Source: an uncultured Bacteroidales bacterium (GTDB lineage Bacteria; Bacteroidota; Bacteroidia; Bacteroidales; Paludibacteraceae). Taken from it: a DNA stretch of 64,000 bases. The notes under the pieces are model-generated. The model made no database searches, was not told the origin of the DNA, and saw only the letters and a list, made by a program, of their open reading frames with translations. The stretch spans positions 71,935 to 135,934 of the forward strand of contig CACYHE010000005.1 of the NCBI GenBank assembly GCA_902774185.1, given 5' to 3'. Shown here in pieces: positions 773 to 62,933 of this stretch. Position 1 is the stretch's first letter; every line of letters begins with the position of its first letter. A program made the position numbers and the translations under genes.

Positions 773-836
773 TATTTACCATTTTGTCATTTACCATATA
801 CCATTTATTTAGTCATTTGGTAAATTAGTCATTTAG
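773..836. repeat. Degenerate 7-nt repeat stretch (ATTTACC / ATTAGTC)
   Basis: The gap between nagB and cysS consists of imperfect heptamer-like units (ATTTACC, ATTTTGTC, ATTTACC, ATATACC, ATTTGGTAA, ATTAGTC, ATTTAGA). It reaches into the nagB stop codon. It is the most degraded member of the short-repeat families in this window. Confidence 0.5.
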
Positions 837-1642
837 AGAAGCGTAGCGGGATCCAGATTATTGCGTTCGATGTCTTTGAAGTAGTTGAAGGTACCCACTT
901 TGAGTTCTTCGCAAGCAGCTTCATCGCAAACGATGATACCGTGTTGGTGCATCTGGAGCATGGAGACGGTCCACATATGCGAGATAGGTTCCTCGATAGC
1001 GTGTTGGAGGGCACGGGCTTTGTTATGACCGTTCACCATGATCAGCACCTCTTTGGCATCCATGACGGTGCCGACACCCACGGTGAGGGCTGTCTTGGGC
1101 ACTTTGTTCACGTCGTTGTCGAAGAAACGGCTGTTAGCGATGATGGTGTCGGTAGTCAGCTCTTTCTTACGGGTACGGCTGGTGAGCGATGAACCCGGTT
1201 CGTTGAAGGCGATATGACCGTCCGGACCGATACCGCCGAGGAACAGATGGATACCGCCGATATTCTTGATTTTCTCTTCGTAACGGGCACACTCGGCTAC
1301 GAGGTCGGGTGCGTTGCCGTTCAGAATATTGACATTCTCTTTGCGGATGTCGATATGACTGAAGAAGTTATTCCACATGAAGCTGTGGTAGCTCTCGGGA
1401 TGGTCTTCCGGCAGGTTGACATACTCGTCCATGTTAAAGGTTACCACATTGCGGAAGGATACTTTTCCGGCTTTATTCAGTTCAATGAGGGCACGGTACA
1501 TGCCGAGCGGGGACGAGCCGGTAGGAAGACCGAGCACGAAAGGTTTGCTCTCTTTGGGGTCAAACTCATTGATACGTTTTGCTACATAGTTCGCAGCCCA
1601 CTGACTGAGCAGGTCATACGAAGGTTCGATAATAACTCTCAT
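833..1642 (-). CDS. nagB: Glucosamine-6-phosphate deaminase
   Basis: Converts glucosamine-6-phosphate to fructose-6-phosphate and ammonia in amino-sugar catabolism (cytoplasmic). At 269 residues it is close to the family norm of about 266. Seen: FNMDEYVNL, holding the aspartate that acts in ring opening, and [17 protein letters not shown], the loop with the catalytic Asp, His and Glu of the NagB family; [15 protein letters not shown] near the N-terminus is the phosphate-binding loop. The ATG at 1642 begins [10 protein letters not shown], the usual start. A 144-bp gap with inverted heptamer arrays separates it from the upstream thioredoxin-like lipoprotein gene, so it may have its own transcript, but I found no clean -33/-7 pair there. 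Confidence 0.95.
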
Positions 1643-1649
1643 ATTTTCA

Positions 1650-1793
1650 ATTTAGAATTTAGAATTTACAATGAAGAATTAAGAAAGGACTATTGGAGTT
1701 TGATACGAACTTTCAAGATACATATGGCTCTTATAGTTTTGTACAAAAATCACCAGAACGCTTTCTTAATTGTTAATTCTTAATTTTTAATTC
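1650..1793. repeat. Two inverted heptamer arrays flanking an 81-bp spacer
   Basis: Five units related to ATTTAGA (1650-1684) face four TTAATTn units (1766-1793). AATTAAGAAAG at 1677-1687 is perfectly complementary to CTTTCTTAATT at 1761-1771. The spacer holds no convincing gene. The layout resembles a tiny element with terminal inverted repeats, but no target duplication was recognised. Confidence 0.5.
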
Positions 1794-2581
1794 AATAGGA
1801 TCTCTTCTATCTCGGGTTCTTCGAGGTTGACGCCGACGATGATACCGTTACGGTCAATGAGGACGGTATGCGGGATGTATTGCACGCCGTATTTCTCGGA
1901 ACACGGATAGTATTCTGTTTCCCGGATCTGCAACCATGGCATCTGTTCTTCCTCCATGGCTTTGATCCAATCGGCTTCACGTTGATCGACCGAACAACTG
2001 AGTATCTGCAGTCGACCTTTGGGTTGCCCGGCGTATATCTCTTTGAGAACCGGAATAAGACGACGGCAGGGACCGCACCAACTTGCCCAGAAATCAACCA
2101 ACACATAGTCTGTCTGACCGACGAGCTCACTAAGCGACAGGGCTTCACCTTCCGGTGTCAGACCGGTGAAGTCGATATAGGGGTGACCTTTGGACGTAGC
2201 GGACTGTATCAGAAAATGGTCATAGATCTCTTTGATCTGCTCTTGCTCCAACATGGATTCGGGCATGATGTCGAAGAGTTCCTCTTTCTGCTCGGCGGAG
2301 AAGAAAGGATAGATGTTCAAGAACAGCGTATCGGCGTACTCGGACTTGATGTTCTTTTTGAGGAGCAGGTAAGCGGAGTCGATGAGGTTGGTCAGCACGG
2401 CTTGCTGTTCCTCCATGCTCTGCGCTTCGCTGAATGCCAATTCGGCATTGGCTTCCAGGTTTTCCCACTCGGCTTTCAGGTTCACTTTTTTTCGGCAACC
2501 GACCAAAGCCAGGGTCAATGCCAAAGCGATAAAAATATACTTTTTCTTAGCCATAAAGGCACGATTAACTTCGTTTTTCAT
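1787..2581 (-). CDS. TlpA/ResA-like thioredoxin-fold lipoprotein
   Basis: Probable periplasm-facing thiol-disulfide oxidoreductase anchored by lipid. Seen: a signal peptide with lipobox LVGC (Cys29), a helical linker at about 35-125, and a thioredoxin domain from about 133 with VDFWASWCGPC, active-site CGPC at 169-172, plus the later cis-proline segment IPHTVLID. This matches the AhpC/TSA-Redoxin family of Bacteroidota. The annotated ATG at 2581 starts one base after the glgB stop, which suggests translational coupling; an internal ATG at 2554 (MAKKKYIFIAL) would give a more typical signal peptide and is an equally likely start. The natural substrate is unknown, and nothing links it functionally to glycogen metabolism beyond the shared operon. 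Confidence 0.85.
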   Translation of the reverse strand: MKNEVNRAFMAKKKYIFIALALTLALVGCRKKVNLKAEWENLEANAELAFSEAQSMEEQQAVLTNLIDSAYLLLKKNIKSEYADTLFLNIYPFFSAEQKEELFDIMPESMLEQEQIKEIYDHFLIQSATSKGHPYIDFTGLTPEGEALSLSELVGQTDYVLVDFWASWCGPCRRLIPVLKEIYAGQPKGRLQILSCSVDQREADWIKAMEEEQMPWLQIRETEYYPCSEKYGVQYIPHTVLIDRNGIIVGVNLEEPEIEEILLN

Positions 2582-2582
2582 A

Positions 2583-4742
2583 TCAATCTATTTTTTGTAA
2601 AACAACTGCACTGCGTGCCGGCAGGTACATCTTCAGCCAACCCTTGCCGTCCTTGGCGTAGAGGTTGTCATGCTCGGTGAAATGTGCCACACTGTCGTCG
2701 CTCAGACCGAAACCGGCGAACTCTTTGGCATCGGTATTGAGAACCACTTTGTATTGGCCTTCGGGTACGAGCATACCGTAGTCGGTGAAGGATTTCTGAC
2801 CGTTCCAGTTGAAGATGAACAGCAGGTCATTGCGGGAGTAAGCGACAACCTGGTCACCCTCGTTGTCCCACCATTTCATGACCCACGGCAGGTGTTTGCC
2901 GACATTATATCTCTTCTCGTCTGCCGTCGGGTTCTGGATGAGCAGATGTTTCTTGAGCAGATGCACCATCGCCTCGTCGAAGCGGTTGAGGTCGGCGAAG
3001 AAATAGTTGGGGTTATCCACCAGATCCCATTGACGACGGGCATATTTATGACTCCAACCGTTGCCCTCACGCGGGAAATCGATCCATTCGGGATGTCCGA
3101 ACTCATTGCCCATGAATGTGAGATATCCACCATTAATGGTGGATGCGGTAACCAACCGGATCATCTTATGCAACGCGATACCGCGATCCGCCATATAGGT
3201 CGAATGACCATGCTCGAAATGCCAGTACATGTCGGAATCGACGAGACGGAAGATGATGGTCTTATCGCCTACCAGCGCCTGGTCGTGACTCTCGGCGTAG
3301 GAGATGGTCTTCTCGTCCTCCCGTCGGTTGGTCATCTCAAACAGGATATGGCCGGCTTTCCAGTCCTCGTCCTTGACCTCTTTGATATACTTGATCCAGA
3401 AATCAGGGATACCCATCGCCAGACGGTAGTCGAAGCCTACACCGCCATCTTCGATGGCTGCAGCCAGACCCGGCATGCCGGACATCTCTTCGGCGATGGT
3501 GATGGCTTCGGGTTTGACCTCGTGAATGACCTTATTGGCAAGGGTGAGGTACATGAGGGCGTCGCCGTCTTCGTTGCCGTTGAAATAAGAGGGATAGCCG
3601 TTGAAGTCTTCGCCCAGACCGTGACTGCGGTAGATCATACTGGTCACGCCGTCAAAGCGGAAACCGTCGAAGTCATACTCGTCCAGCCAGAACTTACAGT
3701 TCGAGAGCAGGAAATGGAGCACTTCGTTCTTGCCGTAGTTGAAGCAGAGCGAGTCCCAAGCCGGGTGCTCGCGACGGGCACCGTCATGGAAATACTGATA
3801 GGGGGTACCGTCGAAGTTACCAAGTCCCTCCAGTTCGTTCTTCACGGCGTGACTGTGCACAAGGTCCATGATGACGTGGATACCGCGACCGTGCGCATCG
3901 TCGATGAGGGCTTTGAGTTCATTGGGCGTACCGAAACGACTGCTGGCAGCAAAGAAATTGGATACATGGTAGCCGAACGAACCGTAGTACGGGTGCTCCT
4001 GGATCGCCATGATCTGGATGCAGTTATAACCCAGTGCATCGATACGCGGCAACACATCACGACGGAACTCCTCGTACGAGCTTACCTTCTCCTCTTTGGA
4101 AGACATACCGATATGGCATTCGTAGATATAGAGCGCTTCGCGCGATTTGTTTGATGTCGTTTGACGTCGTTTGACATTGTTTGATGTCGTTTGACGATTT
4201 TTCCATTGGTACTCGGGTTCGTCCCAAACCTGCGCGGAGAAGATCTTGGTCTGCTCGTCCTGTACGACACGGCGTACATAAGACGGGATTCGTTCGCCGT
4301 AACCGCCGTTCCACTCGACAAGCAGTTTGTATAGTTGTCCGTGTTGGAGTGCGTTCTCCGGCATTTTGGCCTCCCATACGCCGTTGCCGATTGGCTGAAG
4401 ACGGTATGCCTCGTCCTTCTGCCAACCGTTCATGTCACCCTTGATATAAATGGCGGTCGCGTTCGGTGCCCACTCACGAAGCACCCATTCGCCTGCTACT
4501 TTCTTTCCTTTAGCATCGGTGTAGGGTTTTTGATGGTGGAGACCAAAATAGAGATAACCGGTAGCCCATTCGCTGAGAGGTTTGCCGCCGGTCAGTTCGG
4601 CTTCTTTGTTCCGTGCGTAGTCTGCGCGCGCCTGCAAGGCACCCTCATAGGGTTGCAGATACGGGTCACGCTCCACAATCTTCAAGTGTTTGGGTGCACT
4701 TTCGACTTTCGACTTTCGACTTTCAACTTTTTTTGTTGCCAT
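2583..4742 (-). CDS. glgB: 1,4-alpha-glucan branching enzyme (GH13)
   Basis: Introduces alpha-1,6 branches into glycogen. The 719-residue protein has an N-terminal CBM48-like domain (about 60-175), a GH13 barrel and an all-beta C-terminus. Catalytic signatures: GFRFDGVTSM with nucleophile Asp364, IAEEMSG with the acid/base Glu at 418-419, and SHDQ with Asp487. Two segments look foreign to the family. Residues 5-15 (KVESRKSKVES) are encoded by a 7-nt repeat array at 4698-4732. Residues about 183-199 (RQTTSNNVKRRQTTSNK) are encoded by five 10-nt repeats at 4149-4198, in a linker between the CBM48-like and catalytic domains where they should be tolerated. A strong promoter at 4783-4814 sits about 40 bp upstream. 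A glycogen synthase gene lies at 20997-22565. Identity is secure. Confidence 0.95.
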   Translation of the reverse strand: MATKKVESRKSKVESAPKHLKIVERDPYLQPYEGALQARADYARNKEAELTGGKPLSEWATGYLYFGLHHQKPYTDAKGKKVAGEWVLREWAPNATAIYIKGDMNGWQKDEAYRLQPIGNGVWEAKMPENALQHGQLYKLLVEWNGGYGERIPSYVRRVVQDEQTKIFSAQVWDEPEYQWKNRQTTSNNVKRRQTTSNKSREALYIYECHIGMSSKEEKVSSYEEFRRDVLPRIDALGYNCIQIMAIQEHPYYGSFGYHVSNFFAASSRFGTPNELKALIDDAHGRGIHVIMDLVHSHAVKNELEGLGNFDGTPYQYFHDGARREHPAWDSLCFNYGKNEVLHFLLSNCKFWLDEYDFDGFRFDGVTSMIYRSHGLGEDFNGYPSYFNGNEDGDALMYLTLANKVIHEVKPEAITIAEEMSGMPGLAAAIEDGGVGFDYRLAMGIPDFWIKYIKEVKDEDWKAGHILFEMTNRREDEKTISYAESHDQALVGDKTIIFRLVDSDMYWHFEHGHSTYMADRGIALHKMIRLVTASTINGGYLTFMGNEFGHPEWIDFPREGNGWSHKYARRQWDLVDNPNYFFADLNRFDEAMVHLLKKHLLIQNPTADEKRYNVGKHLPWVMKWWDNEGDQVVAYSRNDLLFIFNWNGQKSFTDYGMLVPEGQYKVVLNTDAKEFAGFGLSDDSVAHFTEHDNLYAKDGKGWLKMYLPARSAVVLQKID
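4149..4198. repeat. Five 10-nt repeats inside glgB (GTTTGAnnTn)
   Basis: Units GTTTGATGTC, GTTTGACGTC, GTTTGACATT, GTTTGATGTC and GTTTGACGAT lie in frame. On the coding strand they read TCAAAC every 10 nt, so QTTSN recurs every 10 residues in GlgB. Confidence 0.9.
4698..4732. repeat. Heptamer array at the glgB 5' end (ACTTTCG)
   Basis: ACTTTCG x3, ACTTTCA and ACTTTTT encode the KVESRKSKVES stretch at the N-terminus of GlgB. The same unit recurs at 62577-62604 and, rotated, at 62123-62150. Confidence 0.85.
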
Positions 4743-4782
4743 AATCGTATGTGTTTTTCGTTAATGTATTTCAATTTGGCCG

Positions 4783-4814
4783 CAAAGGTACGAAAAAAAA
4801 ATGACATACGCAAG
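4783..4814 (-). promoter_or_regulatory. Promoter of glgB
   Basis: Minus-strand -7 TACCTTTG (4783-4790) and -33 CTTG (4811-4814), 20 bp apart. The -33 box is exactly the four-base loop of a CATACG/CGTATG hairpin, and the spacer contains the T-tract that follows the hairpin. Confidence 0.75.
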
Positions 4815-4832
4815 CGTATGCCATTCTTTTTG
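4791..4832 (-). terminator. Hairpin plus T-tract merged with the glgB promoter
   Basis: On the minus strand a stem CATACG-CTTG-CGTATG (arms 4805-4810 and 4815-4820), extended by imperfect A/T pairing, is followed by nine Ts running into the -7 box. It would end leftward transcripts from the 4.8-5.4 kb region. Other cases: 25129-25169 and 57814-57855. Confidence 0.55.
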
Positions 4833-4854
4833 TTGCTACCTCTCATTTTTTCGG

Positions 4855-4882
4855 ACTAAAACGGGGTTTTAACGGGGTTTTG
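4855..4882 (+). repeat. G-rich 28-bp motif, copy 1
   Basis: ACTAAAACGGGGTTTT followed by AACGGGGTTTTG. Copies lie at 5141-5168 (inverted, identical over 28 bp) and 57866-57893 (direct). Flanking GACTA and TAGTC could pair around it. The region 4833-5170 otherwise shows no gene. Confidence 0.7.
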
Positions 4883-5140
4883 AGGTAGTCTTAAGGTGGT
4901 TTGGAGTACGATTGGACGACATCTATCATCCATCTGTCTGGTCGCGGCTTGGTCCCGTTCTGGTCGCGTTCATATCCCGATCATATCTCGGCTTTGATAC
5001 GAGAATGCCCCTTGATTGATACGATGTTCTATTTTTCTCACACGTAATCATCACGTGGTCATCACGTGGTCATTGCCTATGCAAAACCTATCCGGAAATG
5101 TTCTTTTTTACGAGATATGCAAACCTATACATAAGGAGGA

Positions 5141-5168
5141 CAAAACCCCGTTAAAACCCCGTTTTAGT
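5141..5168 (-). repeat. G-rich 28-bp motif, copy 2 (inverted)
   Basis: The minus strand reads ACTAAAACGGGGTTTT then AACGGGGTTTTG, identical to copy 1 and 258 bp from it, so the two copies form an inverted pair. It lies just beyond the proposed sRNA terminator. Confidence 0.7.
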
Positions 5169-5173
5169 GGCAG

Positions 5174-5325
5174 AAAAAAACAGGACTGGCTGCCTGTCTG
5201 CCCTTGATTAGGAAATCATATGAGCAGTAGAGCAGATGAGCAGTTGTTTTTTAATTTACTTCACACATGGGCGTGTGTGAAATAATTAGAATGAACTGCT
5301 CATCTGCTCTATTAAGATCGCTTAT
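5174..5325 (-). ncRNA. Candidate small RNA with a 17-bp hairpin
   Basis: A perfectly spaced minus-strand promoter (5331-5362) points at a region without a protein gene. The predicted transcript forms a long stem: 17-nt arms at 5229-5245 and 5294-5310 are perfectly complementary, and an inner 8-bp stem (TTCACACA/TGTGTGAA) closes a six-base loop. Downstream, ACAGG/CCTGT (5180-5197) followed by seven Ts resembles an intrinsic terminator, giving about 150 nt. No known RNA family was recognised. It could instead be a processed leader or a cruciform-forming site. Confidence 0.5.
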
Positions 5326-5330
5326 CGTTG

Positions 5331-5362
5331 CAAAGTTATAACTTTTTTTCGAAATATGCAAA
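5331..5362 (-). promoter_or_regulatory. Promoter of the candidate sRNA
   Basis: Minus-strand -7 TAACTTTG (5331-5338) and -33 TTTG (5359-5362) with 20-bp spacing. No protein gene follows for over 500 bp. Confidence 0.7.
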
Positions 5363-5428
5363 TATAAGTTTTGGGGAAAATGTTCGTGTATTACAGCGGA
5401 GGGGGTATAAGTGCTTTTTAAAAACATA

Positions 5429-6013
5429 TTATTCAGTCTTCTTATAAAAACGATACATATCAAAGTTATCCGGGTCTCCTATGAATCCCCAAATCATGCT
5501 TGGTTTGATTGCCCCATCTACTTTTTCATTATGTATATTCATATACACAACACATCCACCTTTATCCCATTGCATTCTTTCTTCCTTAGTCATTAGATGA
5601 GTAGGTATGGCATCTAAGCAAATTTGATAACATATCGTATCTCCGTGTGATACCTCCGGTGTTATTCTCCAGTATCCGCTAAAATTAAAGAAAGAACTCT
5701 TCTCGTCGGTTGTTCCAAAATAATAATAGTAATTATTGATACCTTTTTTATTAACATTATGTAATATGCATGTTCCATCATTATTAATTTCTATGATGGC
5801 ACCATCATCAGCAGTCCAAACTCCAACGATCTCAGTGGAATCAGGGCTATATCTAGAATATTTGTCCCAACGATCAAAATGGCTCCATCCGATGAAACGA
5901 CTTGTCAACATTGTCAGTAACGCGAATCCAATAATGGCCTTCCTTGCAATTAGTTGACATGAGCATAGTACTACGCTCAAAGCTAAACATGTCAAAACAA
6001 TGTACTTTTTCAT
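5429..6013 (-). CDS. Hypothetical lipoprotein, last gene of the RHS block
   Basis: Not recognised as a named family. The 194-residue product starts with a lipoprotein signal peptide (lipobox LCSC, Cys19), followed by a second hydrophobic stretch (about 24-38) and a soluble part. That part begins EIVGVWTADDGAIIEINNDG, which resembles the first strands of lipocalin-like or copper-resistance-type beta barrels, and includes SGYWRI. It lies 25 bp downstream of the small membrane protein gene and ends the AT-rich RHS locus. Position after a polymorphic-toxin-like gene makes an immunity or accessory role possible; that is inference from context only. Start ATG at 6013 is unambiguous. Confidence 0.7.
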   Translation of the reverse strand: MKKYIVLTCLALSVVLCSCQLIARKAIIGFALLTMLTSRFIGWSHFDRWDKYSRYSPDSTEIVGVWTADDGAIIEINNDGTCILHNVNKKGINNYYYYFGTTDEKSSFFNFSGYWRITPEVSHGDTICYQICLDAIPTHLMTKEERMQWDKGGCVVYMNIHNEKVDGAIKPSMIWGFIGDPDNFDMYRFYKKTE

Positions 6014-6038
6014 CGTGTTTCAAAATTATTGGGTAATA

Positions 6039-6557
6039 TTAGGATCTTTTTCTATCTATGGCTTTCATATATCGGATAAGATGTTTGATGCCATAACTTC
6101 TACTCTCTATCGGCAGTCCCAATTCTTTTTTATTTTTACGTAGAAAAAAATTAACATCTCCTATTCCGCTAGGAATGGATATTTTTCTTCCATCATTTAA
6201 GTTTAACTCTATTATTTCTACAAAGTTTGTGGACGCCGGCCCAAAATCATAGTAAACCCATTTTTTTATGTCACTTGACTTAAAAGTAATGTATGTTTCT
6301 TGGCGTTTATATACAAAAACCTTATTTGTAATATCTATTGACAGGCTTGTTTGCTTATTATATTTAAACATTTTTAACCGTACAAACACATAAGGAATCG
6401 GATACATAATCCAGGCTGCCGCAAAGAGGACATATATGATGCTGTTAGTATTAATAAATAAGGCAATAAATAGTCCTCCGATAAACCAGAATATAAATAA
6501 CGATATTATGAATTCTAGTGTTATAAAAGTAATTCCTTTAGAAGTGAAGATTTTCAT
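6039..6557 (-). CDS. Small membrane protein next to the RHS tail (candidate immunity protein)
   Basis: The 172-residue product has two adjacent transmembrane helices in the first 80 residues (LEFIISLFIFWFIGGLFIAL and a second ending PIPYVFV). A cytoplasmic domain of PH/YcxB-like flavour follows, with alternating strands such as KVFVYKRQETYITF and ISIPSGIGDVNFF. I chose the ATG at 6557 (MKIFTSKG): the longer reading starts at a TTG inside the RHS gene. It begins 14 bp after the RHS stop. Two-helix proteins with such a soluble domain often follow toxin genes, so immunity to the RHS C-terminal domain is a reasonable guess but unproven. Confidence 0.7.
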   Translation of the reverse strand: MKIFTSKGITFITLEFIISLFIFWFIGGLFIALFINTNSIIYVLFAAAWIMYPIPYVFVRLKMFKYNKQTSLSIDITNKVFVYKRQETYITFKSSDIKKWVYYDFGPASTNFVEIIELNLNDGRKISIPSGIGDVNFFLRKNKKELGLPIESRSYGIKHLIRYMKAIDRKRS

Positions 6558-6571
6558 AATCCATTTAATTG

Positions 6572-9500
6572 TTAAAATCCATCCATGTACCAATTACCCC
6601 AGAAATTGAGGCTACCAAAGTACATATTCAAATTATTGTATAATTCAATAAATCCTTCTCCAATTATTATAGATCCGTGTACCATAATATCTATCTCCAG
6701 TAGTGCCAAAAGAACTTCGGGATTTTTTGCGGCGAGCGTTGTTAAAGTTAACATTGCTGAATCGTAAATATTTTCTACGGTTACACCCTGGAATTGAAAA
6801 CGCTTGTATAGATTGTACGCTTCTGCTATGGTTAAAGCATTCGAAAACGAATGAAGAAACTTTATATATTCTGGATTAAGATTGAATTTTTCTAAAATAC
6901 GTGTACTTAAAGCAAGATTATATCCAAAAAAATTACTTTGCAATATATCATAAATTAATATCTCATCCGAGTTAAGAATATCTCTAATCAACAAAGGATG
7001 CTCTCTGGGGCGTATTCCATATGGCACAAATCTATTCCATGTATTATTAAAATATCCATTCCCACTAATATCATATTTTGCATAACTACCTTTTTGATAA
7101 CTAAAATCATCATATTGCCGCCCAATAAGTTTGTATCTAAGAAGATCCCAATATGTACCGTCCCATTGATCATCATCAACCAAGTATACTCCCTTGTCTG
7201 GACTTAATAAATCATAGTCAATAATAATATCATTTTCGTCCACAGCAATCCAATGACACGTTGAAGTTGTAAGCCCACTCAATCCCATCCAATCAATGGC
7301 ATTGACAAATCGGTTACCGGCATAGGAGTATGGCGATTGCCATGGGGTTTGTTCAGCAAGAGGATCCATTGAAGTAAATCGCCCGATAGTTGTATAATAA
7401 TTTCGGAAACCATATTCGTATTCGTTTAATTCATGAGCAGTCACTAACTCCTTACTGTTATACAGATATGGCTGCACACTCAGTGTATTTGATTGCATAG
7501 GTACACCGGAAGCATAATACTGAGTTTGCTGCACGACGTCATCTGTCGTGGATCTGACTACGGCACAGATATTGCCAAGATGGTCTTTGAGATAATGGAA
7601 ATATGTGCCGTCAGTATAGTAGCCGATGGTATTGTGAATGCGTTGTATTGTATCGGTTCGAGAAAATTTATTCTCTATGGAACCGGCATACTCAGTAACA
7701 AGAAAATCGATAGTATCCACATCCAATGCATAGTGAACAATCCCATGTATCGGTGTAATGGCTGTAGAAGGAACTGTGTAAATGATTGACCTGTACTTTC
7801 TGCCGGTAGCATCATACAAATTGACAATCTGATTGCCATTTCCAAACTGTATCGTATCCGGCAGATTGAGGTAGTTATATCGAATAGCTACTATATCGCG
7901 GTCGACATCAGATGCCAAATTACCATTCGAATCATATTCCATTGAATTGGGAATATGGGACATATTAGTAATAACATTAACATTATGATATTCAATCACA
8001 TTAAAAAAATCTCCATCCAGCCCGGCATCCGAAACAGATAATAGATGATTGCTGTTAGTACCGTATGTATAATCTAAATCGTCAATAAGAAAGGCCCCAT
8101 TATAATAACGTTTTAAACTGAGGATGTTACCTGCATTGTCGTACCCAAAAGATTCGCTCATCATCCATCTCCTTACAAAAAAATATTTGGATTCCTTCAA
8201 ACGATTTAAAGAATCGTACGTGTAAGCATATGTATTAGAAGAACCACCATATGTGGATGTGACAGCAGCAATATTACCATTATGGCATTGAGAAACCGAC
8301 TGCATGTTATTGAGAAAGTCATCTGCATAGTATAACTTCTCAGAGAAATGCTTGTTGCGGGTGTTTGTCAGCATATTGCGCATGTCATAAGAATACGTAA
8401 TCGTATCTTTATTATGCAACAAATTTTGTGCCAATCGTCCAATAGAATCGTAAGAAAATGCAGATAATGTAATTTCATCTTCATTATTGAGTTGATAATG
8501 GATTTCCTTAGCTCTTCCTGCATGGTCATATGAATAACGATAATGCTCGCGTACAAGTGCAGTATCGGGACCTTGAATGGTCATTTGTTGTGCAACCGAT
8601 CCGTCAAATAGATATTCGGTACTCGTCGTGATGTATCCACCAGCATTACGCGTTCCACGGGATTGTACTAAACGCCCGTGAATGTCGTAGTAATATGCCG
8701 TAATTGTAGCACCTGCTTCAGATAAGTTATACACCTTTGTTCCTGTTATACAACCTTTAGCTGTATCACAAGGACGACCATATCCGGTTTCTTGTACAAA
8801 ACCAAGATGGTTCTGTTCTTCCGAATTCAGTAAACTCATATACTCATAATTATCATAATAGTTGACTGTTAGCATACGAATATTGCTTGCCCCAGGTATT
8901 GAACATGTATATCCGACATCTGGTATTGCTTCGGATTGACTGCCGACATAATGCTCTACTTGCCACCGATCCGCAAAATAGGATAATAAAATTATTGGGT
9001 TGCTTGCTAATACAATTTCTGCCGTATAGAGGTTTTGCCCGATAGAATCATATGCGAACAAAGTCCATTTGTTGGCATCTTGCTGGTTGCCGTCTTGTTT
9101 AAGTATCAATTGCCCTATCTGATCATAAATCAGAATCTGTTCTTTACAACCAGGTAGTTTTTTGGTAATCATATTACCTCGCTCATCATATGAATAATAA
9201 TAAGCTATTCCTTTGATTACCGTATTGTTGGTTGTGTATGAGCCATTGGTCAGTTTAGATGTTGGTAAATTTGGTAGCACATACCGTAAACGCCCCAAAT
9301 CATCATATACATAATAAGTACGGCTACTCCCGCGTTCTTCCATAATTTTACGACCTAACATGTCGGTATAAATAGTAAGAGGAGAATGTCCATCTTCATC
9401 CGATGATGATGTTTTGTATAAGGTGGCTCCTGCGTAATAGGACCCGTCTGTGCAAAGAGCATTATTAAGATGATTAACAGTATATATCCGTACATTGTCG

Positions 9501-10609
9501 CTGCTACTATTTAGGCCATAGGATTGAGATGCCGGATACTCAGAATAAGATGCACCAGGACGCTTCTGAGACGAAGGTCGCATGAGTGCAGAATTCTCAT
9601 AGCGTGTTTCAAAAAAAGGTCGGCTATCATTATAATCCGTTACCGCTTGTGATTGCACATTCGTGATACTGACTTTTTGTCCTTCTGTATCCATAACAAC
9701 AGGAAGCCATTGCCTTGCAGTTTTTGTCGTGCCGTAATAATCTATCAATGATACTACGTCGTCTTTCTCTGGAGTAACGCCTATGTCGATTGTTTCGTCA
9801 GGTCTCCCTAGTCCATCATAGTATTGCAGATTAGTTCGGACGCGCACTCCACTGCTAACAGATGGTTGCCCGTCTATAATACTAATACGTGTGGTCGGAT
9901 CAAGCGGAATAATGGATAATGTATAGTTCTCGCCGGTTGGCAGTGCTTGTGCACCGATGATAGATTCTTCATAATAAGATGTGTGAGAGAGCAGGGATGT
10001 ACCAAACGATACACGGTCTGTCCTCCACAGACTGCTTTCAGGAACAGCCATCCCATCTGCATCGAACTCTACCCATGTGCGGTGCAGACTAACACAGGAA
10101 TCTCCTTGTGTTAAATCTGGATTTGACGCATGAAGCAAATACGGACTATTCACAAAATCATTCCCGTCATAATGAATTAGATCAACTGTGTCATTTAGGT
10201 TATTTGATAGCGTTATCGTTTCTCCTTCGTTGGCTAAAGAGATGGAGTTCTGATAGATAATAGTGTCTATTGAATTATTGTTGAAGGTATATACATTGTT
10301 CATTTGAAACGTGCTATTTGCTCTGCGATAAGCAACTATAAGATATTTTCCCGACGGAAGAATAAGATTCTGAAATGTATATACCTCATTAGTTCCCCCA
10401 CCTCTTAGTTTCCATCCTTGTAAGGATACGGATGCAGTGCCGGCATTATACAACTCAACAAATTCCCCTTCATTGGTCTGCTGACTTTCAGGTAACTCGT
10501 CATAGGAAGAGTCATATAGAACTTGATTAATAATCACATAATTATTTGCATTGGATGCAATAGGGTATAAAAATGCTAACAATATATAATAAAGAACATA
10601 CTTTTTCAT
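6572..10609 (-). CDS. Giant secreted RHS/YD-repeat protein with N-terminal lamin-tail domain
   Basis: The 1345-residue protein has a signal peptide (1-21), a lamin-tail domain (about 23-155: FVELYNAGTASVSLQGWKL, LPSGKYLIVAY), then many YD/RHS repeats (YSYDERGNM, YDIHGRLVQ, YDSLNRLKE) from about 260. It ends in the RHS-associated core RNYYTTIGRFTSMDPLAEQ and NAIDWMGL near 1110. After the core comes a unique tail, residues 1111-1345 (6572-7279), of no family I recognise; it is partly hydrophobic around 1290-1320. RHS shells usually encapsulate and release such tails as toxins or effectors. It lies 2 bp after the 990-residue partner gene, with a membrane protein gene just downstream. Base composition is distinctly AT-rich against the flanking genes, which suggests transfer. 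Confidence 0.85.
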   Translation of the reverse strand: MKKYVLYYILLAFLYPIASNANNYVIINQVLYDSSYDELPESQQTNEGEFVELYNAGTASVSLQGWKLRGGGTNEVYTFQNLILPSGKYLIVAYRRANSTFQMNNVYTFNNNSIDTIIYQNSISLANEGETITLSNNLNDTVDLIHYDGNDFVNSPYLLHASNPDLTQGDSCVSLHRTWVEFDADGMAVPESSLWRTDRVSFGTSLLSHTSYYEESIIGAQALPTGENYTLSIIPLDPTTRISIIDGQPSVSSGVRVRTNLQYYDGLGRPDETIDIGVTPEKDDVVSLIDYYGTTKTARQWLPVVMDTEGQKVSITNVQSQAVTDYNDSRPFFETRYENSALMRPSSQKRPGASYSEYPASQSYGLNSSSDNVRIYTVNHLNNALCTDGSYYAGATLYKTSSSDEDGHSPLTIYTDMLGRKIMEERGSSRTYYVYDDLGRLRYVLPNLPTSKLTNGSYTTNNTVIKGIAYYYSYDERGNMITKKLPGCKEQILIYDQIGQLILKQDGNQQDANKWTLFAYDSIGQNLYTAEIVLASNPIILLSYFADRWQVEHYVGSQSEAIPDVGYTCSIPGASNIRMLTVNYYDNYEYMSLLNSEEQNHLGFVQETGYGRPCDTAKGCITGTKVYNLSEAGATITAYYYDIHGRLVQSRGTRNAGGYITTSTEYLFDGSVAQQMTIQGPDTALVREHYRYSYDHAGRAKEIHYQLNNEDEITLSAFSYDSIGRLAQNLLHNKDTITYSYDMRNMLTNTRNKHFSEKLYYADDFLNNMQSVSQCHNGNIAAVTSTYGGSSNTYAYTYDSLNRLKESKYFFVRRWMMSESFGYDNAGNILSLKRYYNGAFLIDDLDYTYGTNSNHLLSVSDAGLDGDFFNVIEYHNVNVITNMSHIPNSMEYDSNGNLASDVDRDIVAIRYNYLNLPDTIQFGNGNQIVNLYDATGRKYRSIIYTVPSTAITPIHGIVHYALDVDTIDFLVTEYAGSIENKFSRTDTIQRIHNTIGYYTDGTYFHYLKDHLGNICAVVRSTTDDVVQQTQYYASGVPMQSNTLSVQPYLYNSKELVTAHELNEYEYGFRNYYTTIGRFTSMDPLAEQTPWQSPYSYAGNRFVNAIDWMGLSGLTTSTCHWIAVDENDIIIDYDLLSPDKGVYLVDDDQWDGTYWDLLRYKLIGRQYDDFSYQKGSYAKYDISGNGYFNNTWNRFVPYGIRPREHPLLIRDILNSDEILIYDILQSNFFGYNLALSTRILEKFNLNPEYIKFLHSFSNALTIAEAYNLYKRFQFQGVTVENIYDSAMLTLTTLAAKNPEVLLALLEIDIMVHGSIIIGEGFIELYNNLNMYFGSLNFWGNWYMDGF

Positions 10610-10611
10610 GA

Positions 10612-13584: not shown

Positions 13585-13590
13585 TACTTC

Positions 13591-14625
13591 TTATAATTTA
13601 ATAATATTTCCAGACACAACCGAATCATCTGCATATATGTATATGGTATATGAACCTACTTGCATCCCAGCCATATTCACTAATACGGTGTGTTCTCCTT
13701 CTTCTTCATGGCAGATGGGTGTATGAAAGATAGTTGTTCCACCGTTATGATGAACGGAAATAAAAACTTGCGCTGGACGGACAAGCGAGTATTGTATCTG
13801 CAAATCCGCATATACAGGATTAGGGACATAACGAACATTAGTTATCAGGCTATCCATTGCATTCTCCGGTTTTTCATCCAAATCTTCACGCTTGGGCATA
13901 TCTTTCTGTTCTTGCGGAATATAATATGCCGAAGCAACGGAGATAGTATCCGTTTTAGTAACTGTATGAACAAGAATAGTTTCAAATACAGGATACCGAC
14001 AATAGGGAGAATACCACAAATGCCGCTCTTCACTAATGTTGTTTTGAACATGCTTTTTCTCGTGATAATTAATTATTGAACGCACATGAAGAACCGTATC
14101 TATTTGGATGTCTGGCAACTTTAATTGGCCGATTGCAGTTGCCATTGTGGAAAAGAACCCCTCTATAGAAAAGGGTAAAATATGACAGTACTGTCCATTA
14201 CCGTCAAAAAATCCACTAAGAGAATCACCATAGACAAAGGGATACCTCATAACAGGAAGGGGGAATGAATAGAGCACATGTGTACGAGAGGTCTCATATC
14301 CAATCTGCCATAGTGTGTCTTGAGCTAATTGGTAATAGTAATGAGCATGTTCACGATGAAGCCCAATATTACAGGTATCAGTATCGGACGAATTGTAATA
14401 ATGGATGTCCACTATATCTGCTGTGTCTGTAGAGATGTTAGAGAAGTCCCATATACAATTTCTTCCAGTATCCGTTACATGAATATAGGGTAATTTATAT
14501 GCCCATAAACTATCTGTGCATAGCGGCTTGTGATGCTCTGCGGTGAGTACTTGGGCTGACAGGAATGTCGGAAAAGACAGAACGATCAACCATGGTATCA
14601 TTGGAATATAATGTCTCGTACGCAT
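13591..14625 (-). CDS. Secreted protein with T9SS-type C-terminal sorting domain
   Basis: The 344-residue product has an N-terminal signal peptide (1-24, ending FLSAQ) and a beta-rich body with no family I can name. The last 80 residues fit a type A T9SS sorting domain: VPNPVYADLQIQYSL, a central strand, GSYTIYIYADD and the terminal basic motif GNIIKL. Such proteins are exported by SecYEG and then by the type IX system to the surface. It lies 18 bp downstream of the DUF3244-like gene and 6 bp upstream of the RHS partner, so it belongs to the same transcript. It may help deliver or anchor the RHS proteins; that is inference. Confidence 0.75.
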   Translation of the reverse strand: MRTRHYIPMIPWLIVLSFPTFLSAQVLTAEHHKPLCTDSLWAYKLPYIHVTDTGRNCIWDFSNISTDTADIVDIHYYNSSDTDTCNIGLHREHAHYYYQLAQDTLWQIGYETSRTHVLYSFPLPVMRYPFVYGDSLSGFFDGNGQYCHILPFSIEGFFSTMATAIGQLKLPDIQIDTVLHVRSIINYHEKKHVQNNISEERHLWYSPYCRYPVFETILVHTVTKTDTISVASAYYIPQEQKDMPKREDLDEKPENAMDSLITNVRYVPNPVYADLQIQYSLVRPAQVFISVHHNGGTTIFHTPICHEEEGEHTVLVNMAGMQVGSYTIYIYADDSVVSGNIIKL

Positions 14626-51695: not shown

Positions 51696-51696
51696 G

Positions 51697-51724
51697 GTTG
51701 AACGTTTAAGGTTTAACGTTTAAT
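51697..51724. repeat. Heptamer array before surE (GTTTAAG)
   Basis: GTTGAAC, GTTTAAG, GTTTAAC, GTTTAAT; fills the gap from the M16 stop to the surE start and overlaps the surE ATG. Confidence 0.85.
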
Positions 51725-52731: not shown

Positions 52732-53872
52732 TGATCCGGGCAGCTTGTTCTGCCGCCGGTTGGGAACCTAAGATAGAAACGAGGTGTTCGTAGGAAGCGA
52801 GCATCTCTTTTTTGTATGCTTCGTCGTGTAAGAGGCGGTCTAATTCAGACGCTACTTTGTCCACCGTGAACGTGTTTGCCACGCATTCTTGGATCACCTC
52901 TTTGCCGCTGATGATATTGACCAAGGTGAAATAAGGGATGGAGAAGAACAGAGGTTGCGCCCAGCGTACCAGACCGATGAGACGGGAACAAGCGATATGA
53001 TACACCGCTACCTGCGGGCAACCCAATAGGGCGGTCTCCAAGGTGGCGGTACCCGAATTGACGATGGCCGCACATGCCTCTTGAACGGTCGCGTACGTGT
53101 CACGCGTGAGCGTGTCGTGCGCGTTTAGATAAGGAGTGTAGAAAGCGTCCTCTATTCCAGGAGCTGCACAAACAACCACTTGGTATCCCGCAAAACGATG
53201 TGCCGCCTCTAACATCTTCGGCAGACAATGACTGATCTCAGATGGCCGTGAGCCGGGTAAGATAGCGAGCACAGACCGCTTCGCTGACAGAGTACAGACC
53301 GCTTCGCTGACAGACCGAGTTTGTAAATCAGTCTGTGCTCTGTGTTCTGTGTTCTGTGTTCTCCTGATTTCCTCCGCTGTCGGATTACCGACATAGCGGC
53401 ATGTATATCCGTATTGGGCATAAAACGCCGGTTCGAAGGGGAAGATACCCAACACTTCGTCGCATAATCGGGCAATCTTATGTACGCGTCTGCGTTTCCA
53501 TGCCCACACCTTAGGCGGGATATAATAGATGATCTTCGTTTGCGGCAGGTGCCGTTTGCAGAACGCCGCCATGCGCAGGTTAAAAGAGGGGTAATCAATG
53601 AGGATCAGGACGTCCGGTCGCTCTTTGAGCAAGGCTTCATGCGCAATGCGGAAGTTCGTTTTGACATCCTTCCAGTGTTGGATCACCGCCGCAAAACCCA
53701 TAAACGCCATATGGCGGTAATCCTGATAGAGTTGGCACCCGGCGGCTCTCATCTTATCGCCTCCGAGTCCCGCAAATCGAGCGTCCGGGTCACGTAGTCG
53801 GATCTGTTGGATCAGTTCGGCCGCGTGTGTGTCTCCCGACGCCTCTCCTGCTATGAGAAAATAGTTGGACAT
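52715..53872 (-). CDS. lpxB: Lipid-A-disaccharide synthase with repeat insert
   Basis: GT19 enzyme joining UDP-diacylglucosamine and lipid X at the inner membrane. Family motifs: IAGEASGDTHAAELIQQI at the N-terminus, YPSFNLRMAAFCK, YIPPKVWAWKRRRVHKIA, ILPGSRPSEI and YHIACSRLIGLVRW. The 385-residue length includes about 30 residues (171-200: TQNTEHRAQTDLQ then SVSEAVCTLSAKRS) that are foreign, encoded by two repeat families at 53271-53359. They lie in the loop between the acceptor and donor halves. It is followed upstream by glmM with only 20 bp between, filled by heptamers. Confidence 0.94.
   Translation of the reverse strand: MSNYFLIAGEASGDTHAAELIQQIRLRDPDARFAGLGGDKMRAAGCQLYQDYRHMAFMGFAAVIQHWKDVKTNFRIAHEALLKERPDVLILIDYPSFNLRMAAFCKRHLPQTKIIYYIPPKVWAWKRRRVHKIARLCDEVLGIFPFEPAFYAQYGYTCRYVGNPTAEEIRRTQNTEHRAQTDLQTRSVSEAVCTLSAKRSVLAILPGSRPSEISHCLPKMLEAAHRFAGYQVVVCAAPGIEDAFYTPYLNAHDTLTRDTYATVQEACAAIVNSGTATLETALLGCPQVAVYHIACSRLIGLVRWAQPLFFSIPYFTLVNIISGKEVIQECVANTFTVDKVASELDRLLHDEAYKKEMLASYEHLVSILGSQPAAEQAARIITTRP
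53271..53359. repeat. Two repeat families nested inside lpxB
   Basis: Two 23-bp units starting ACAGACCGCTTCGCTGACAG (53271-53316) then TCTGTGC, TCTGTGT x3 heptamers (53332-53359). The first shares GACCGCTTCGCTG with glycogen synthase. Confidence 0.9.
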
Positions 53873-53899
53873 TAGCTATTAGCTCTTAGCTTTTAGCTT
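53872..53899. repeat. Heptamer array between glmM and lpxB
   Basis: TTAGCTA, TTAGCTC, TTAGCTT, TTAGCTT; spans the lpxB start codon side and the glmM stop at 53893. Confidence 0.85.
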
Positions 53900-55266
53900 T
53901 TCACTACTTCAATCACTTTCTGTGCGAGTTCATTCGCCTCATCCATCGTGGCAGCTTCCGAATAAACGCGGATGATGGGCTCGGTATTCGACTTACGCAG
54001 ATGTACCCAGCCGTCCGCAAAATCGATCTTCACACCGTCCCGGTCGTTGACGCGTTCGTCGCGATAAAGCTCTTTGACGCGTGCTAAAATGGCATCGACA
54101 TCGGTGTCCGGCGTCAAGTCAATACGGTTCTTGCTGATACAGTAGTCCGGTAACGTACGACGTAACTCACTCACTTTGCAACCCAGATGGGCGATGTGAC
54201 TGAGGAACAAGGCAATGCCTACCAATGCGTCCCGACCGTAGTGACACTCGGGATAGATGACCCCGCCGTTTCCTTCGCCACCGATGACAGCACCCACACG
54301 TTTCATCTCAGCTACCACGTTCACTTCGCCTACCGCACTCGCACTGTACGAACCGCCAAATTTGGCGGTTACGTCCGCTAACGCACGCGTGCTCGACATG
54401 TTGCTTACCGTGTTACCCGGCGTGTGACGAAGGACGTAATCCGCTACGCTGACCAGGGTGTATTCCTCACCGAACATATCGCCGTTCTCGCAGATGATAG
54501 CCAAACGGTCCACGTCCGGATCGACTACAAAACCGACATCGGCTTTCCCGCTCTTGAGCAGGTCGCTGATCTGAGTCAGGTGTTGAGGCAGGGGTTCGGG
54601 ATTATGGGGAAAATGACCGTCCGGCGTGCAGTTCAGTTCGATGATATTGTCCACACCTACGGCTTTCAAGATAGCCGGGATAGCGAGTCCGCCTACCGAG
54701 TTCACGCAGTCAATGGCTACGGTGAAATTGCGCTTTTTGATCGCCTCGACATCTACCAACGGGAGGTTCAAGACCTGTTGCACATGGTAGGGCAGGTAGT
54801 CCTTATGCGTCATATGACCCAATGCATCCACCTCGGCGAACGTGAAGTCTTCTTGTTCAGCGATTGCCAGCACGCCTTTGCCTTCGGCATCGTTCAGAAA
54901 CTCACCGTGTTCGTTGAGTAACTTGAGTGCGTTCCACTGTTTGGGATTATGGCTGGCGGTTAAGATGATTCCACCTGCGGCTTGTTCACCCGTCACGGCT
55001 AACTCGGTTGTCGGCGTGGTAGCCAGACCGATATTGACGACGTCGTATCCCATCCCCATCAATGTTCCGCACACAATGCTCTCCACCATATGGCCGCTCA
55101 GACGGGCGTCACGACCCACTACGATCTTGTTATTATTCGGTAATGCAGCACGGCGTTGTGTGGCATATGCTGCTGTGAAACGAACGATATCTACGGGATT
55201 CAAGCCCTCACCGACACGACCGCCGATGGTTCCTCGGATACCCGATATACTTTTGACTAAACTCAT
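53893..55266 (-). CDS. glmM: Phosphoglucosamine mutase-type phosphohexomutase
   Basis: Interconverts hexosamine-6- and -1-phosphate for peptidoglycan and LPS precursors. The 457-residue chain shows all four mutase sites: ISGIRGTIGGRVGEG, ILTASHNPKQ with the phospho-Ser105, the metal loop VDPDVDRLA, the sugar loop GGEGNGGVIYPE and the phosphate loop RKSNTEPIIRVYSEA. It lies directly upstream of lpxB, consistent with envelope supply. glmM versus a general phosphomannomutase cannot be settled by motif alone; context favours glmM. Confidence 0.88.
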   Translation of the reverse strand: MSLVKSISGIRGTIGGRVGEGLNPVDIVRFTAAYATQRRAALPNNNKIVVGRDARLSGHMVESIVCGTLMGMGYDVVNIGLATTPTTELAVTGEQAAGGIILTASHNPKQWNALKLLNEHGEFLNDAEGKGVLAIAEQEDFTFAEVDALGHMTHKDYLPYHVQQVLNLPLVDVEAIKKRNFTVAIDCVNSVGGLAIPAILKAVGVDNIIELNCTPDGHFPHNPEPLPQHLTQISDLLKSGKADVGFVVDPDVDRLAIICENGDMFGEEYTLVSVADYVLRHTPGNTVSNMSSTRALADVTAKFGGSYSASAVGEVNVVAEMKRVGAVIGGEGNGGVIYPECHYGRDALVGIALFLSHIAHLGCKVSELRRTLPDYCISKNRIDLTPDTDVDAILARVKELYRDERVNDRDGVKIDFADGWVHLRKSNTEPIIRVYSEAATMDEANELAQKVIEVVKS

Positions 55267-61732: not shown

Positions 61733-61746
61733 TCTGTGTTCTGTGT
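61733..61746. repeat. Two heptamers (TCTGTGT) between DUF486 and the sirtuin gene
   Basis: TCTGTGT x2 then TCTACTT; same unit as in lpxB (53332-53359). Confidence 0.6.
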
Positions 61747-61747
61747 T

Positions 61748-62119
61748 CTACTTAAATCCAAAGACAAAATACACGGCGCCGATCAGTAATACGCACGCAA
61801 CCAGATGGTTCCAACGTATCTGCATATGAAAAGCAATCGCAGAGAAGATCACAAAAACCACTAACGTGATCACCTCTTGAATCACTTTCAACTGCATCAA
61901 ACTGAAACTTCCGCCGTTCCCTTCAAAACCGATTCGGTTTGCCGGAACCTGCAGACAGTATTCGAAAAAAGCGATACCCCAGGACAGCAAGATCACAAAA
62001 ATCAAAGGCGTCGTGTTTCCGATCACATGCAACGATTGTAATTTCAGATGCCCGTACCATGCGAATGTCATAAATACATTTGCTACCAATAATAACAATA
62101 TCGTATAAACTGCATTCAT
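61748..62119 (-). CDS. DMT-like small membrane protein (DUF486)
   Basis: The 123-residue protein has four helices (ILLLLVANVFMTFAWYGHL, FVILLSWGIAFFEYCLQVPA, VITLVVFVIFSAIAFHMQI, HLVACVLLIGAVYFVFGFK) and the DUF486 signature FEYCLQVPANRIGFE. The family resembles small drug/metabolite transporters of the DMT clan; the substrate is unknown. It lies between ttcA and the sirtuin gene on the same strand. Confidence 0.85.
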   Translation of the reverse strand: MNAVYTILLLLVANVFMTFAWYGHLKLQSLHVIGNTTPLIFVILLSWGIAFFEYCLQVPANRIGFEGNGGSFSLMQLKVIQEVITLVVFVIFSAIAFHMQIRWNHLVACVLLIGAVYFVFGFK

Positions 62120-62122
62120 AGC

Positions 62123-62150
62123 CTTTCAACTTTCAACTTTCAATTTTCAA
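62123..62150. repeat. Heptamer array at the ttcA 3' end (CTTTCAA)
   Basis: CTTTCAA x3, TTTTCAA; fills the gap to DUF486 and runs over the ttcA stop (LQLKIES end). Confidence 0.85.
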
Positions 62151-62933
62151 CTGTAACGGCAAATAGTCATATTTGACGTTACTCAGCGCTCCGTACATCG
62201 AGTCCGTTGCTTCGGGATTCAGTTCCTTGATCTGCGCCAGCAGTCCCTTCACTTGTTCCCGCGCACTCACATGCTCGAACGGACATAACTTCTGCTGTTT
62301 CTCATAGCCCCGCATGGCGGCATACTGCACGATATCCGCTTCGTCAATCAGGCACAAGGGACGAATGATCTGTAGCGGCATCTTGTCCATCTGCAGCATC
62401 GGCGGCATGGTGGCAAACGTACCCTGATAAATCAGATTCATCAGCATCGTCTCGATCACATCGTCGCGGTGGTGACCAAACGCAATCTTATTGCATCCCA
62501 ACTCTTGCGCTACATTGAAAAGCATCTTCCGTCGGTACCACGAGCATAAGAAACAAGGATTCGTCTCCCGTTCACCACTTTCAACTTTCAACTTTCCACT
62601 TTCCACTGGTTCGTCGATGGATACATCGCGAACCATAAACGGCACTCCCGCCTCTTGACAGAACGACTCCAGATAACTCAAGTCCGTTCGGTAGTCCCGC
62701 TCTTTGACCCGCACATGCATAGCCGTTACCCGAAAACGCGGTTTGTAGATCTTCGAGCGCCTACCTAACAGTTCCGTCAACAACAAACTGTCTTTTCCTC
62801 CGCTCAGACCAATCAGGATATGATCGCCGTCGGCAATCAATCCGTAGTCCGAGCACGCTTTGTGAAAACGCTTCGTCAGTCGTTCACGCTGCTTCTCTAA
62901 CGCAATCTGTTCAGGCGTTTTCTGTCCACTCAT
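62133..62933 (-). CDS. TtcA-like tRNA 2-thiocytidine synthetase
   Basis: PP-loop ATPase that thiolates cytidine 32 of some tRNAs, cytoplasmic. The 266-residue chain has ILIGLSGGKDSLLLTELLGR (PP-loop), two CxxC-like cysteine pairs (NPCFLCSWYRRK around residue 140 and CPFEHVSAR later) and KIAFGHHRDDVIETMLMNLI. Similar PP-loop proteins exist with other thiolation targets; TtcA-like is the closest by motif. A repeat insert (EPVESGKLKVESGE, from 62577-62604) sits just before the cysteine pair. Overlaps DUF805 by 23 bp. Confidence 0.85.
   Translation of the reverse strand: MSGQKTPEQIALEKQRERLTKRFHKACSDYGLIADGDHILIGLSGGKDSLLLTELLGRRSKIYKPRFRVTAMHVRVKERDYRTDLSYLESFCQEAGVPFMVRDVSIDEPVESGKLKVESGERETNPCFLCSWYRRKMLFNVAQELGCNKIAFGHHRDDVIETMLMNLIYQGTFATMPPMLQMDKMPLQIIRPLCLIDEADIVQYAAMRGYEKQQKLCPFEHVSAREQVKGLLAQIKELNPEATDSMYGALSNVKYDYLPLQLKIES
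62577..62604. repeat. Heptamer array inside ttcA (ACTTTCA)
   Basis: ACTTTCA x2, ACTTTCC x2; encodes KLKVES, the same peptide idea as the glgB N-terminal array. Confidence 0.85.

Follow-up and report, generated by a model that had tools for sequence, protein, structure and literature searches.

Degenerate heptamer and decamer arrays within and between the genes of a rumen Paludibacteraceae genome

A 64-kb window from an uncultured Bacteroidales bacterium – part of a 2.19 Mb metagenome-assembled genome (MAG) of a rumen Paludibacteraceae, 87% complete – carries a scatter of short, degenerate tandem arrays with units of 7 or 10 nucleotides, a number of them inside housekeeping genes. This locus raises the question of what such arrays are, how they differ between related genomes, and what would bring them into genes and keep them there. 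They are probably minisatellites of the heptamer kind (short tandemly repeated repetitive sequences, STRR, or long simple sequence repeats, LSSR), changing by slippage and by copying between arrays, and kept where they are tolerated.

Arrays, words and turnover

The sequence-only reading of the window had listed 24 array starts. Tandem Repeats Finder (TRF; minimum score 30) gave an entry for every one, either at the position itself or a few bases from it, the weakest being 61733 (2.4 copies) and 17564 (period 10, 13% indels). A stricter detector, which scores autocorrelation runs (match +1, mismatch −2, score of at least 13) against local second-order Markov shuffles, found 16 period-7 and 4 period-10 arrays in the window, and none of either period in 30 shuffles. 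In 446 kb of this genome (the window and 20 further stretches) there were 100 period-7 and 9 period-10 arrays, with no period-7 arrays in 5 shuffles. Period and copy number lie far above random expectation, in favour of the sequence-only reading, and the arrays have the features of heptamer LSSR: more tandem units of some 7 nt than chance gives, at many dispersed loci per genome.

Wider counts come from a 14-genome sample, 1.70 Mb of stretches from the genus; this genome and 12 others have matches to the searched patterns, and one (G003) has none. Since the sample was picked mostly among pattern-positive genomes, its array density is not that of the genus. It holds 237 heptamer arrays with 91 distinct words, at 0 to 380 arrays per Mb. 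Most of them vary at one or two positions of the unit, in agreement with the earlier description – one variable column in 110 arrays and two in 60 – and the remainder have no variable column (32) or three or more (35). Substitutions occupy 271 columns, compared to 363 for random placement (minimum of 500 simulations, 345). Variation limited to few columns is what duplication of variant units would give, and fits slippage.

In 754 kb around 80 GlgB genes, a set not selected for arrays, period 7 was the commonest of periods 4–12 (88 arrays) and period 11 the second (20); three rounds of shuffling gave none. The GlgB matches among named genomes are chiefly from gut and rumen Paludibacteraceae/Bacteroidales MAGs, with the top segment 91% identical. 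In collections of one genome per species, a broad heptamer pattern was present, this genome counted, in 31 of 120 genomes and 16 of 33 genera drawn from the family, and in 37 of 198 genomes and 34 of 151 genera drawn from the order, against a reversed-pattern control that is itself impure; the minority of genomes involved indicates a patchy distribution. The control is impure for CTTTCAA- and AATTGAA-like words because the reversed word is another heptamer of the same kind. CTTTCRA in three copies was present in 55 of 101 genomes, with at most 39 matches. The decamer GTTTGANNTN, also in three copies, was absent from 82 of the 101; this genome had 133 matches, and 18 others had between 1 and 55. 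Its reversal had no match in any of the 101 genomes with the NNTN spacer, and three in this genome with free spacers.

The repeat words are genome-specific. Among the matches listed, 97 of 120 loci carried the modal variant of their own genome (counting the 16 genomes besides this one that have three or more loci listed), compared to a mean of 54.9 and a maximum of 67 in 5000 permutations; genomes with fewer than three loci were excluded, and 4 of 145 loci were dropped for ties. Words are also shared beyond what composition gives, with a pair match of 0.0247 in the 14-genome sample versus 0.0045 in 200 letter shuffles (maximum 0.0061). Most array flanks (224 of 269) had no non-self match in the examined part of this genome.

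Words change at sites that congeners share. With arrays called at a score of 9, lower than the 13 used elsewhere, 25 of the 136 arrays of this genome had at least one aligned orthologous site; the other 111 drop out. The 134 congener comparisons at these 25 sites showed no array in 108 cases, an array of another family in 21 and one of the same family in just 5, so the inserts are not conserved among congeners, as the sequence-only reading had implied. Eleven of the 21 other-family comparisons come from the glgB linker alone, and one (L145, an octamer versus the decamer) has the GTTTGA core in common. Close loci, 88–93% identical with gaps counted, differ in array presence: L063 and L066 (92.0%) at the GlgB N-terminus, in the array at the ACTTTCG site; L032 and L076 (93.4%) inside glgB; and L086 and L089 (87.6%).

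The GlgB linker of the window was set beside those of 80 named loci, 81 genomes in all. The linker ranges from 54 to 123 bp, holds a tandem array of score 12 or more in 13 of the 81, with at least eight words, and keeps its reading frame in all 81. Other GlgB linkers hold C-rich palindromic or 17-mer repeats where some congeners have heptamer arrays. The linkers of L050, L059, L060, L064–L067, L069, L070 and L075 are C-rich, repeat-like and partly palindromic, with in-frame KPHPTSPQGRRK, KPTPNPSLKGREK and similar sequences. One observation runs counter to fast change: a paralogous gene with 85% overall identity has the decamer array of 41586 letter for letter. The many congeners with common sites and different words provide a natural experiment on the spread of heptamers, a question left open in the portions considered of two earlier papers (PMC4679880, PMC4692102).

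Gene spacers and coding arrays

The sequence-only reading had many arrays in frame inside genes, which is correct for about half. Fourteen of the 24 are inside open reading frames (ORFs) – glgB (two), pepD (two), a C69 dipeptidase (four), the first codons of miaA, cca, the ORF at 41460–42227, the C-terminus of ftsH, lpxB and ttcA – and the other 10 are intergenic or at gene edges. The miaA array may precede the true start codon, the start being ambiguous.

In the 14-genome sample, 109 of the heptamer arrays are intergenic, 93 are coding and 35 are at gene edges, in sequence that is 79% coding; these figures depend on a crude, home-made gene caller, which missed most of the low-GC island of the window and cut lpxB short. 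In gaps of less than 600 bp, arrays with a period of 7, 14 or 21 are mostly found between co-directional genes (124, with 101 expected by space), with 5 in divergent gaps (24 expected) and 5 in convergent gaps (9 expected).

A filter at the protein level seems to act on coding arrays, and their orientation is biased. There are 108 of period 7, 14 or 21, of which 98 are internal. Internal arrays whose opposite strand is open in all three frames use the more hydrophilic orientation in every one of 21 cases; with at least one opposite frame open, 62 of 71 do so. Arrays beginning within the first 26 residues have a positive grand average of hydropathy (GRAVY) in 8 of 10 cases, with peptides such as LSPFTFHLSP and SIFNFQFSI. 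Of the 93 heptamer arrays in coding sequence, 45 are stop-free in all frames of the coding strand.

The placement in linkers, termini and gaps that had been proposed is borne out where it was examined: the GlgB, PepD and LpxB arrays overlap or adjoin gaps relative to the best solved homologue, the TtcA array is in a stretch with small gaps, and the CCA array is outside the best alignment. Several coding arrays lie immediately ahead of a C-terminal stretch that may resemble a secretion sorting domain. Three things go beyond the earlier account – hydrophobic N-termini are hit too, words differ per genome, and the decamer behaves unlike the heptamers.

Repeat DNA reshapes housekeeping proteins here at a large scale, with about two-fifths of the sampled heptamer arrays coding. 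Depending on its orientation, DNA of one kind can yield either a charged linker or a hydrophobic N-terminus. Where unrelated proteins of the clade have peptides like KVESQKSKVES or SQITNDKS in common, this is not a sign of homology.

Origin and persistence of the arrays

We infer that replication slippage both creates arrays of this kind and makes them turn over. Gene conversion, or template switching at short homologies, probably also copies their words in trans from array to array within a genome. The arrays would have no dedicated function, selection acting as a filter. Between genes, they would persist in co-directional spacers and be scarce in divergent gaps, where promoters are found. 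Inside genes, they would persist only in a readable frame and a tolerable orientation, which would mean hydrophilic peptides in internal linkers and mostly hydrophobic ones at N-termini that resemble signal peptides.

Several observations weigh against this explanation. Empty alleles, by eye, are often without an obvious seed copy. Word use is mixed in some genomes – G387 has three variants at three loci, and G115 and G225 are mixed. In the 14-genome sample, heptamer pair sharing is only 1.66 times as high within genomes (0.0356) as between them (0.0215), and the value within genomes is under the permutation maximum of 0.0382 (500 permutations, mean 0.0248). In co-directional gaps, A exceeds T on the sense strand in 87 arrays, with the reverse in 36, compared to 448 and 394 in array-free gap windows (p 0.0003). 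There is a mild pull of arrays toward the downstream start (Kolmogorov–Smirnov p 0.009), and 22% of the 55 arrays wholly within a co-directional gap end no more than 5 nt from that start. The A excess and the pull toward the start could reflect a translational role.

The units of the decamer GTTTGANRTN, too, do not look like plain slippage. Its spacers were compared across 39 arrays, which lie on 17 contigs and derive from about 100 of the 134 matches listed; they have the form N-R-T-N: position 9 is T in all 98 distinct spacers per array, and position 8 is a purine in 91 of the 98. Searching with a free spacer adds one match only (134 versus 133). In 34 short arrays, adjacent spacers differ in 58 of 68 cases; identical neighbours number 10 versus 4.2 by chance, and identical next-neighbours 9 versus 2.1. 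The GTTTGA spacing is 10 in 38 cases and 8 in 11. In the 14-genome sample, coding arrays of period 10 number five; all are from this genome and read the TCAAAC strand, the other strand containing TGA. Spread of multi-unit decamer strings was considered and rejected, as the 4 shared triples (0.28 expected) trace to a duplicated gene and to adjacent parts of a single array. Spacer strings common to distant arrays occur solely in that duplicated gene, and so do not demonstrate copying of whole arrays.

Such a core bears on an alternative that is possible, though we consider it unlikely: that the arrays are binding sites, with a genome-specific DNA- or RNA-binding protein selecting a fixed core (GTTTGA..T, CTTT, ATT.G) and leaving the spacers free. 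The decamer suits this idea, with its invariant core, free spacer and period close to a helical turn, as do the sense A-richness in excess of the array-free control and the position of arrays wholly inside co-directional gaps, slightly closer to the downstream start. Binding has also been proposed for the TAACTGA repeats of Beggiatoaceae, in the portion considered of that work (PMC4679880). It is harder to reconcile with the 93 heptamer arrays within coding sequence, the 91 words among 237 arrays, the usually different words at occupied sites of congeners, and the scarcity of arrays in divergent gaps, the expected home of transcription factors.

We give a rather smaller chance to a trans-acting process that writes arrays of genome-specific words, with a fixed core and free spacers, into many unrelated sites without flanking DNA. 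If true, this would define a class of minimal dispersed DNA having no inverted repeats and no element boundaries, with GTTTGANRTN as its clearest product.

We also doubt that an enzyme acting in trans, such as the multi-copy Y1 family of the genus that resembles the REP-associated tyrosine transposases (RAYT; REP, repetitive extragenic palindrome), moves the arrays as minimal mobile DNA. RAYT-like proteins (E 1e-10 or better) are found in 69 of 101 genomes, with 7 matches in this one. RAYT-positive genomes have a mean of 7.26 CTTTCRA matches versus 0.875 (Mann–Whitney p 2.9e-5, genomes counted irrespective of kinship), an association with p 0.005 in the 43 genomes of at least 90% completeness, and words appear in genome-specific bursts. 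Against this, within 200 bp of 41 RAYT ORFs there were 0 period-7 arrays and 1 period-14 array, where 13.4 were expected if all background arrays are intergenic and 2.9 at the genome-wide rate; the copies flanking a RAYT gene that are a hallmark of such systems are absent for heptamers within this distance. Decamer matches also occur in three genomes (G029, G082 and G101) with no listed RAYT match. Nor was there a clear hairpin, the hallmark of REP, in folded heptamer arrays: of 8 window arrays folded, none had a fold clearly more stable than its shuffles (z between −2.3 and 1.8, no z for one array), and two decamer arrays, at −8.4 and −9.1 kcal/mol, folded roughly like their own shuffles. Four of the 8 had no structure whatever when folded as RNA. 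RNA structure as the basis of the arrays is unsupported by folding, and Rfam at its gathering threshold matched only the 16S fragment at the end of the window.

The Pfam Y1 transposase model matched 29 of 101 genomes at E 0.001 and reverse transcriptase (PF00078) 24 of 101, neither matching this incomplete genome. The RAYT-like proteins form a divergent Y1 family (alignment A1) of about 370 amino acids with a long C-terminal extension and at most 8 matches per genome; here they are on contigs C25, C17, C32, C4 and C16. Within 200 bp of the 41 RAYT-like ORFs there are 8 arrays of period 11 or 22, compared to 3.9 expected if the background is intergenic (p 0.045) and 0.83 at the genome-wide rate, an adjacency of period 11 to these genes that is suggestive only. 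As to carriers, two artificial heptamer queries had no match in a plasmid search, in which the BLAST low-complexity filter may mask such queries, and three exact patterns were found in 49, 39 and 6 stretches among 2.9 million viral contigs, which makes phages at most a rare carrier in that viral collection.

Phase variation, with the arrays as contingency loci whose changes in length switch genes on and off, is very unlikely. A one-unit change in a coding array does shift the frame, because 7 is not a multiple of 3. However, the named genes of the window (glgB, pepD, miaA, cca, ftsH, lpxB and ttcA) are housekeeping genes, the units are degenerate, almost half of the coding arrays are stop-free in every frame of their strand, and the 41586 array is unchanged in its paralogue. 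An artefact of MAG assembly or binning, for which only the nature and incompleteness of this genome speak, can practically be discounted, as arrays occur in MAGs of several series (RUG, RGIG, UBA, SRR bins, Red_deer) and the variable GlgB linker is in frame in every sequence.

Features of the window and comparison with known repeats

Positions of the arrays and of neighbouring features in the 64-kb window
Position	Strand	Feature	Context and comparison
774..836		ATTTACC/ATTTAGTC arrays	Intergenic; TRF; among listed congeners, another array in L047 and L057, none in the rest, with mostly about 15 bp at the site
1643..1685		AATTTAG heptamer array	Intergenic; TRF
1763..1793		TTAATTC/TTAATTG heptamer array	Intergenic; 26–33 bp matched at 90–97% by 13 other places in this genome
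4149..4196	-	Decamer GTTTGANRTN x4.8, read as RQTTSNNVKRRQTTSN	GlgB linker; overlaps 10-residue gap relative to 4bzy; 81 genomes compared
4698..4730	-	ACTTTCG heptamer array, KVESRKSKVES	GlgB N-terminus; 2 aligned congeners without array
about 4750..16700		Low-GC island	37–39% GC versus about 50%
4860..5163		11-bp direct-repeat pairs AACGGGGTTTT, TCATCACGTGG, AAAACCCCGTT	Gap upstream of glgB; two mutually reverse complement
17068..17099	-	ATTTGTC heptamer array, ENDKSQMTNDKY	PepD; next to and partly over a 10-residue insert relative to 3mru; array lacking in all 5 aligned congeners
17564..17601	-	Irregular GTTTGA array	PepD; several other repeat kinds at site in listed congeners (by eye)
18216..18367		Perfect 73-bp tandem duplication	2.1 copies, 100% matches
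19843..19879	-	ATTTGTC/ATTGGTC array	C69 dipeptidase; 13 of 13 aligned congeners without array; site in 7 distinct listed places is 22 bp (6) or 36 bp (1)
20047..20081	-	GATTTGT-type array	C69 dipeptidase; of 13 congeners, 12 without array, 1 other family
20342..20373	-	TCTTTTG/ACTTTCG array	C69 dipeptidase; no array in 12 of 12 congeners
20936..20968	-	AAAGGTG x4.7, LSPFTFHLSP	C69 dipeptidase, hydrophobic N-terminus (putative signal peptide); of 11 congeners, 7 without array, 2 same family, 2 others (CTGANNA, AAAGTCG)
22076..22144 and 53267..53314		Other repeat class, 17–23 bp units around GACCGCTTCGCTGACA	Also fills congener array sites
24434..24498	-	ATTGGTC and AAATCAC arrays	miaA start; start codon ambiguous
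25073..25102		TTAGCCA array	Intergenic; TRF
25789..25820	-	ATTGGTG/ATTTGTC array, QSQITNDKSPI	CCA nucleotidyltransferase
34703..34753	-	TCTTTTG heptamer array	Fills gap between two co-directional genes
35757..35790	-	ATTTCAA array	Intergenic; TRF and detector
41586..41634	-	Decamer array	ORF 41460–42227; decamer part letter-identical in paralogous gene on contig C8
46694..46769		Decamer x7.6, then AAACCTTC octamers at 46775–46802	Upstream of ftsH; TRF
48851..48890	+	Decamer array	FtsH C-terminal tail
51693..51723	+	GTTTAAG/GTTTAAC array	Fills intergenic gap
53332..53362	-	TCTGTGT array	LpxB, beside gaps relative to 5w8s
53871..53901	-	TTAGCTT array	lpxB start
61733..61749	-	Short TCTGTGT array	Between genes; TRF
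62123..62152	-	CTTTCAA array	Spans ttcA 3' end and gap after it
62577..62607	-	ACTTTCA array, PVESGKLKVES	TtcA; site is TTTTCGA in L112, no array in one other congener
63911..64000		16S rRNA gene, 5' end	Cut by window end

The core of the 17–23 bp repeat class, GCGAAGC, is known as a very stable DNA mini-hairpin. The low-GC island encodes a large protein with matches to DUF6443 and to a lamin-tail domain (with an RHS repeat below the cut-off), and has a weak beta-propeller match. In a genome of another family (L231, 630–672), a TTGAAAA array is directly followed by its own reverse complement, a natural inverted heptamer pair.

The analogy with cyanobacterial STRR that accompanied the first description of the arrays fits in form. 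Those heptamers are degenerate, tandem and dispersed through the genome, and, set against them by description, the arrays here have the same strict 7-nt period, degenerate units and many dispersed loci. Rickettsia palindromic elements are likewise tolerated in frame in many unrelated proteins, but they are long palindromes, versus the short tandem units here. Among the open-access papers listed by literature searches, judged by titles and the beginnings of abstracts, there was nothing on heptamer arrays of rumen Paludibacteraceae or on the decamer.

LSSR of 5–11 nt were surveyed by Mrazek in 2007; as told in the portions considered of PMC4679880 and PMC4692102, most genomes have heptamers as their most frequent class, and coding repeats favour multiples of three. 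In contrast, 93 of the 237 period-7 arrays here are coding. The GGGNATC heptamers of Xanthomonas and Nostoc, in the portion considered of PMC4692102, are genome-wide, vary between close species and are over-represented in non-coding DNA. The arrays here resemble them in these respects, but the GGGNATC repeats are G-rich and quadruplex-forming, while the present arrays are A/T-rich. TAACTGA heptamer direct repeats are described in Beggiatoaceae, some cyanobacteria and five Bacteroidetes, including Paludibacter propionicigenes (MacGregor 2015, PMC4679880, in the portion considered). They and the present arrays have in common a 7-nt period and many loci per genome, mainly intergenic with some within ORFs, and the word itself occurs in 1 of the 237 arrays, as TCAGTTA (L196, near 15386). 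The TAACTGA repeats are mostly located no more than a few nt ahead of a start codon; here, 22% of the 55 arrays wholly within a co-directional gap end at most 5 nt from the start, and many other arrays are coding. As far as that portion describes it, the TAACTGA system has one word; the arrays of this genus have 91, with a change of word at shared sites, an orientation bias in proteins, and a decamer with a free spacer.

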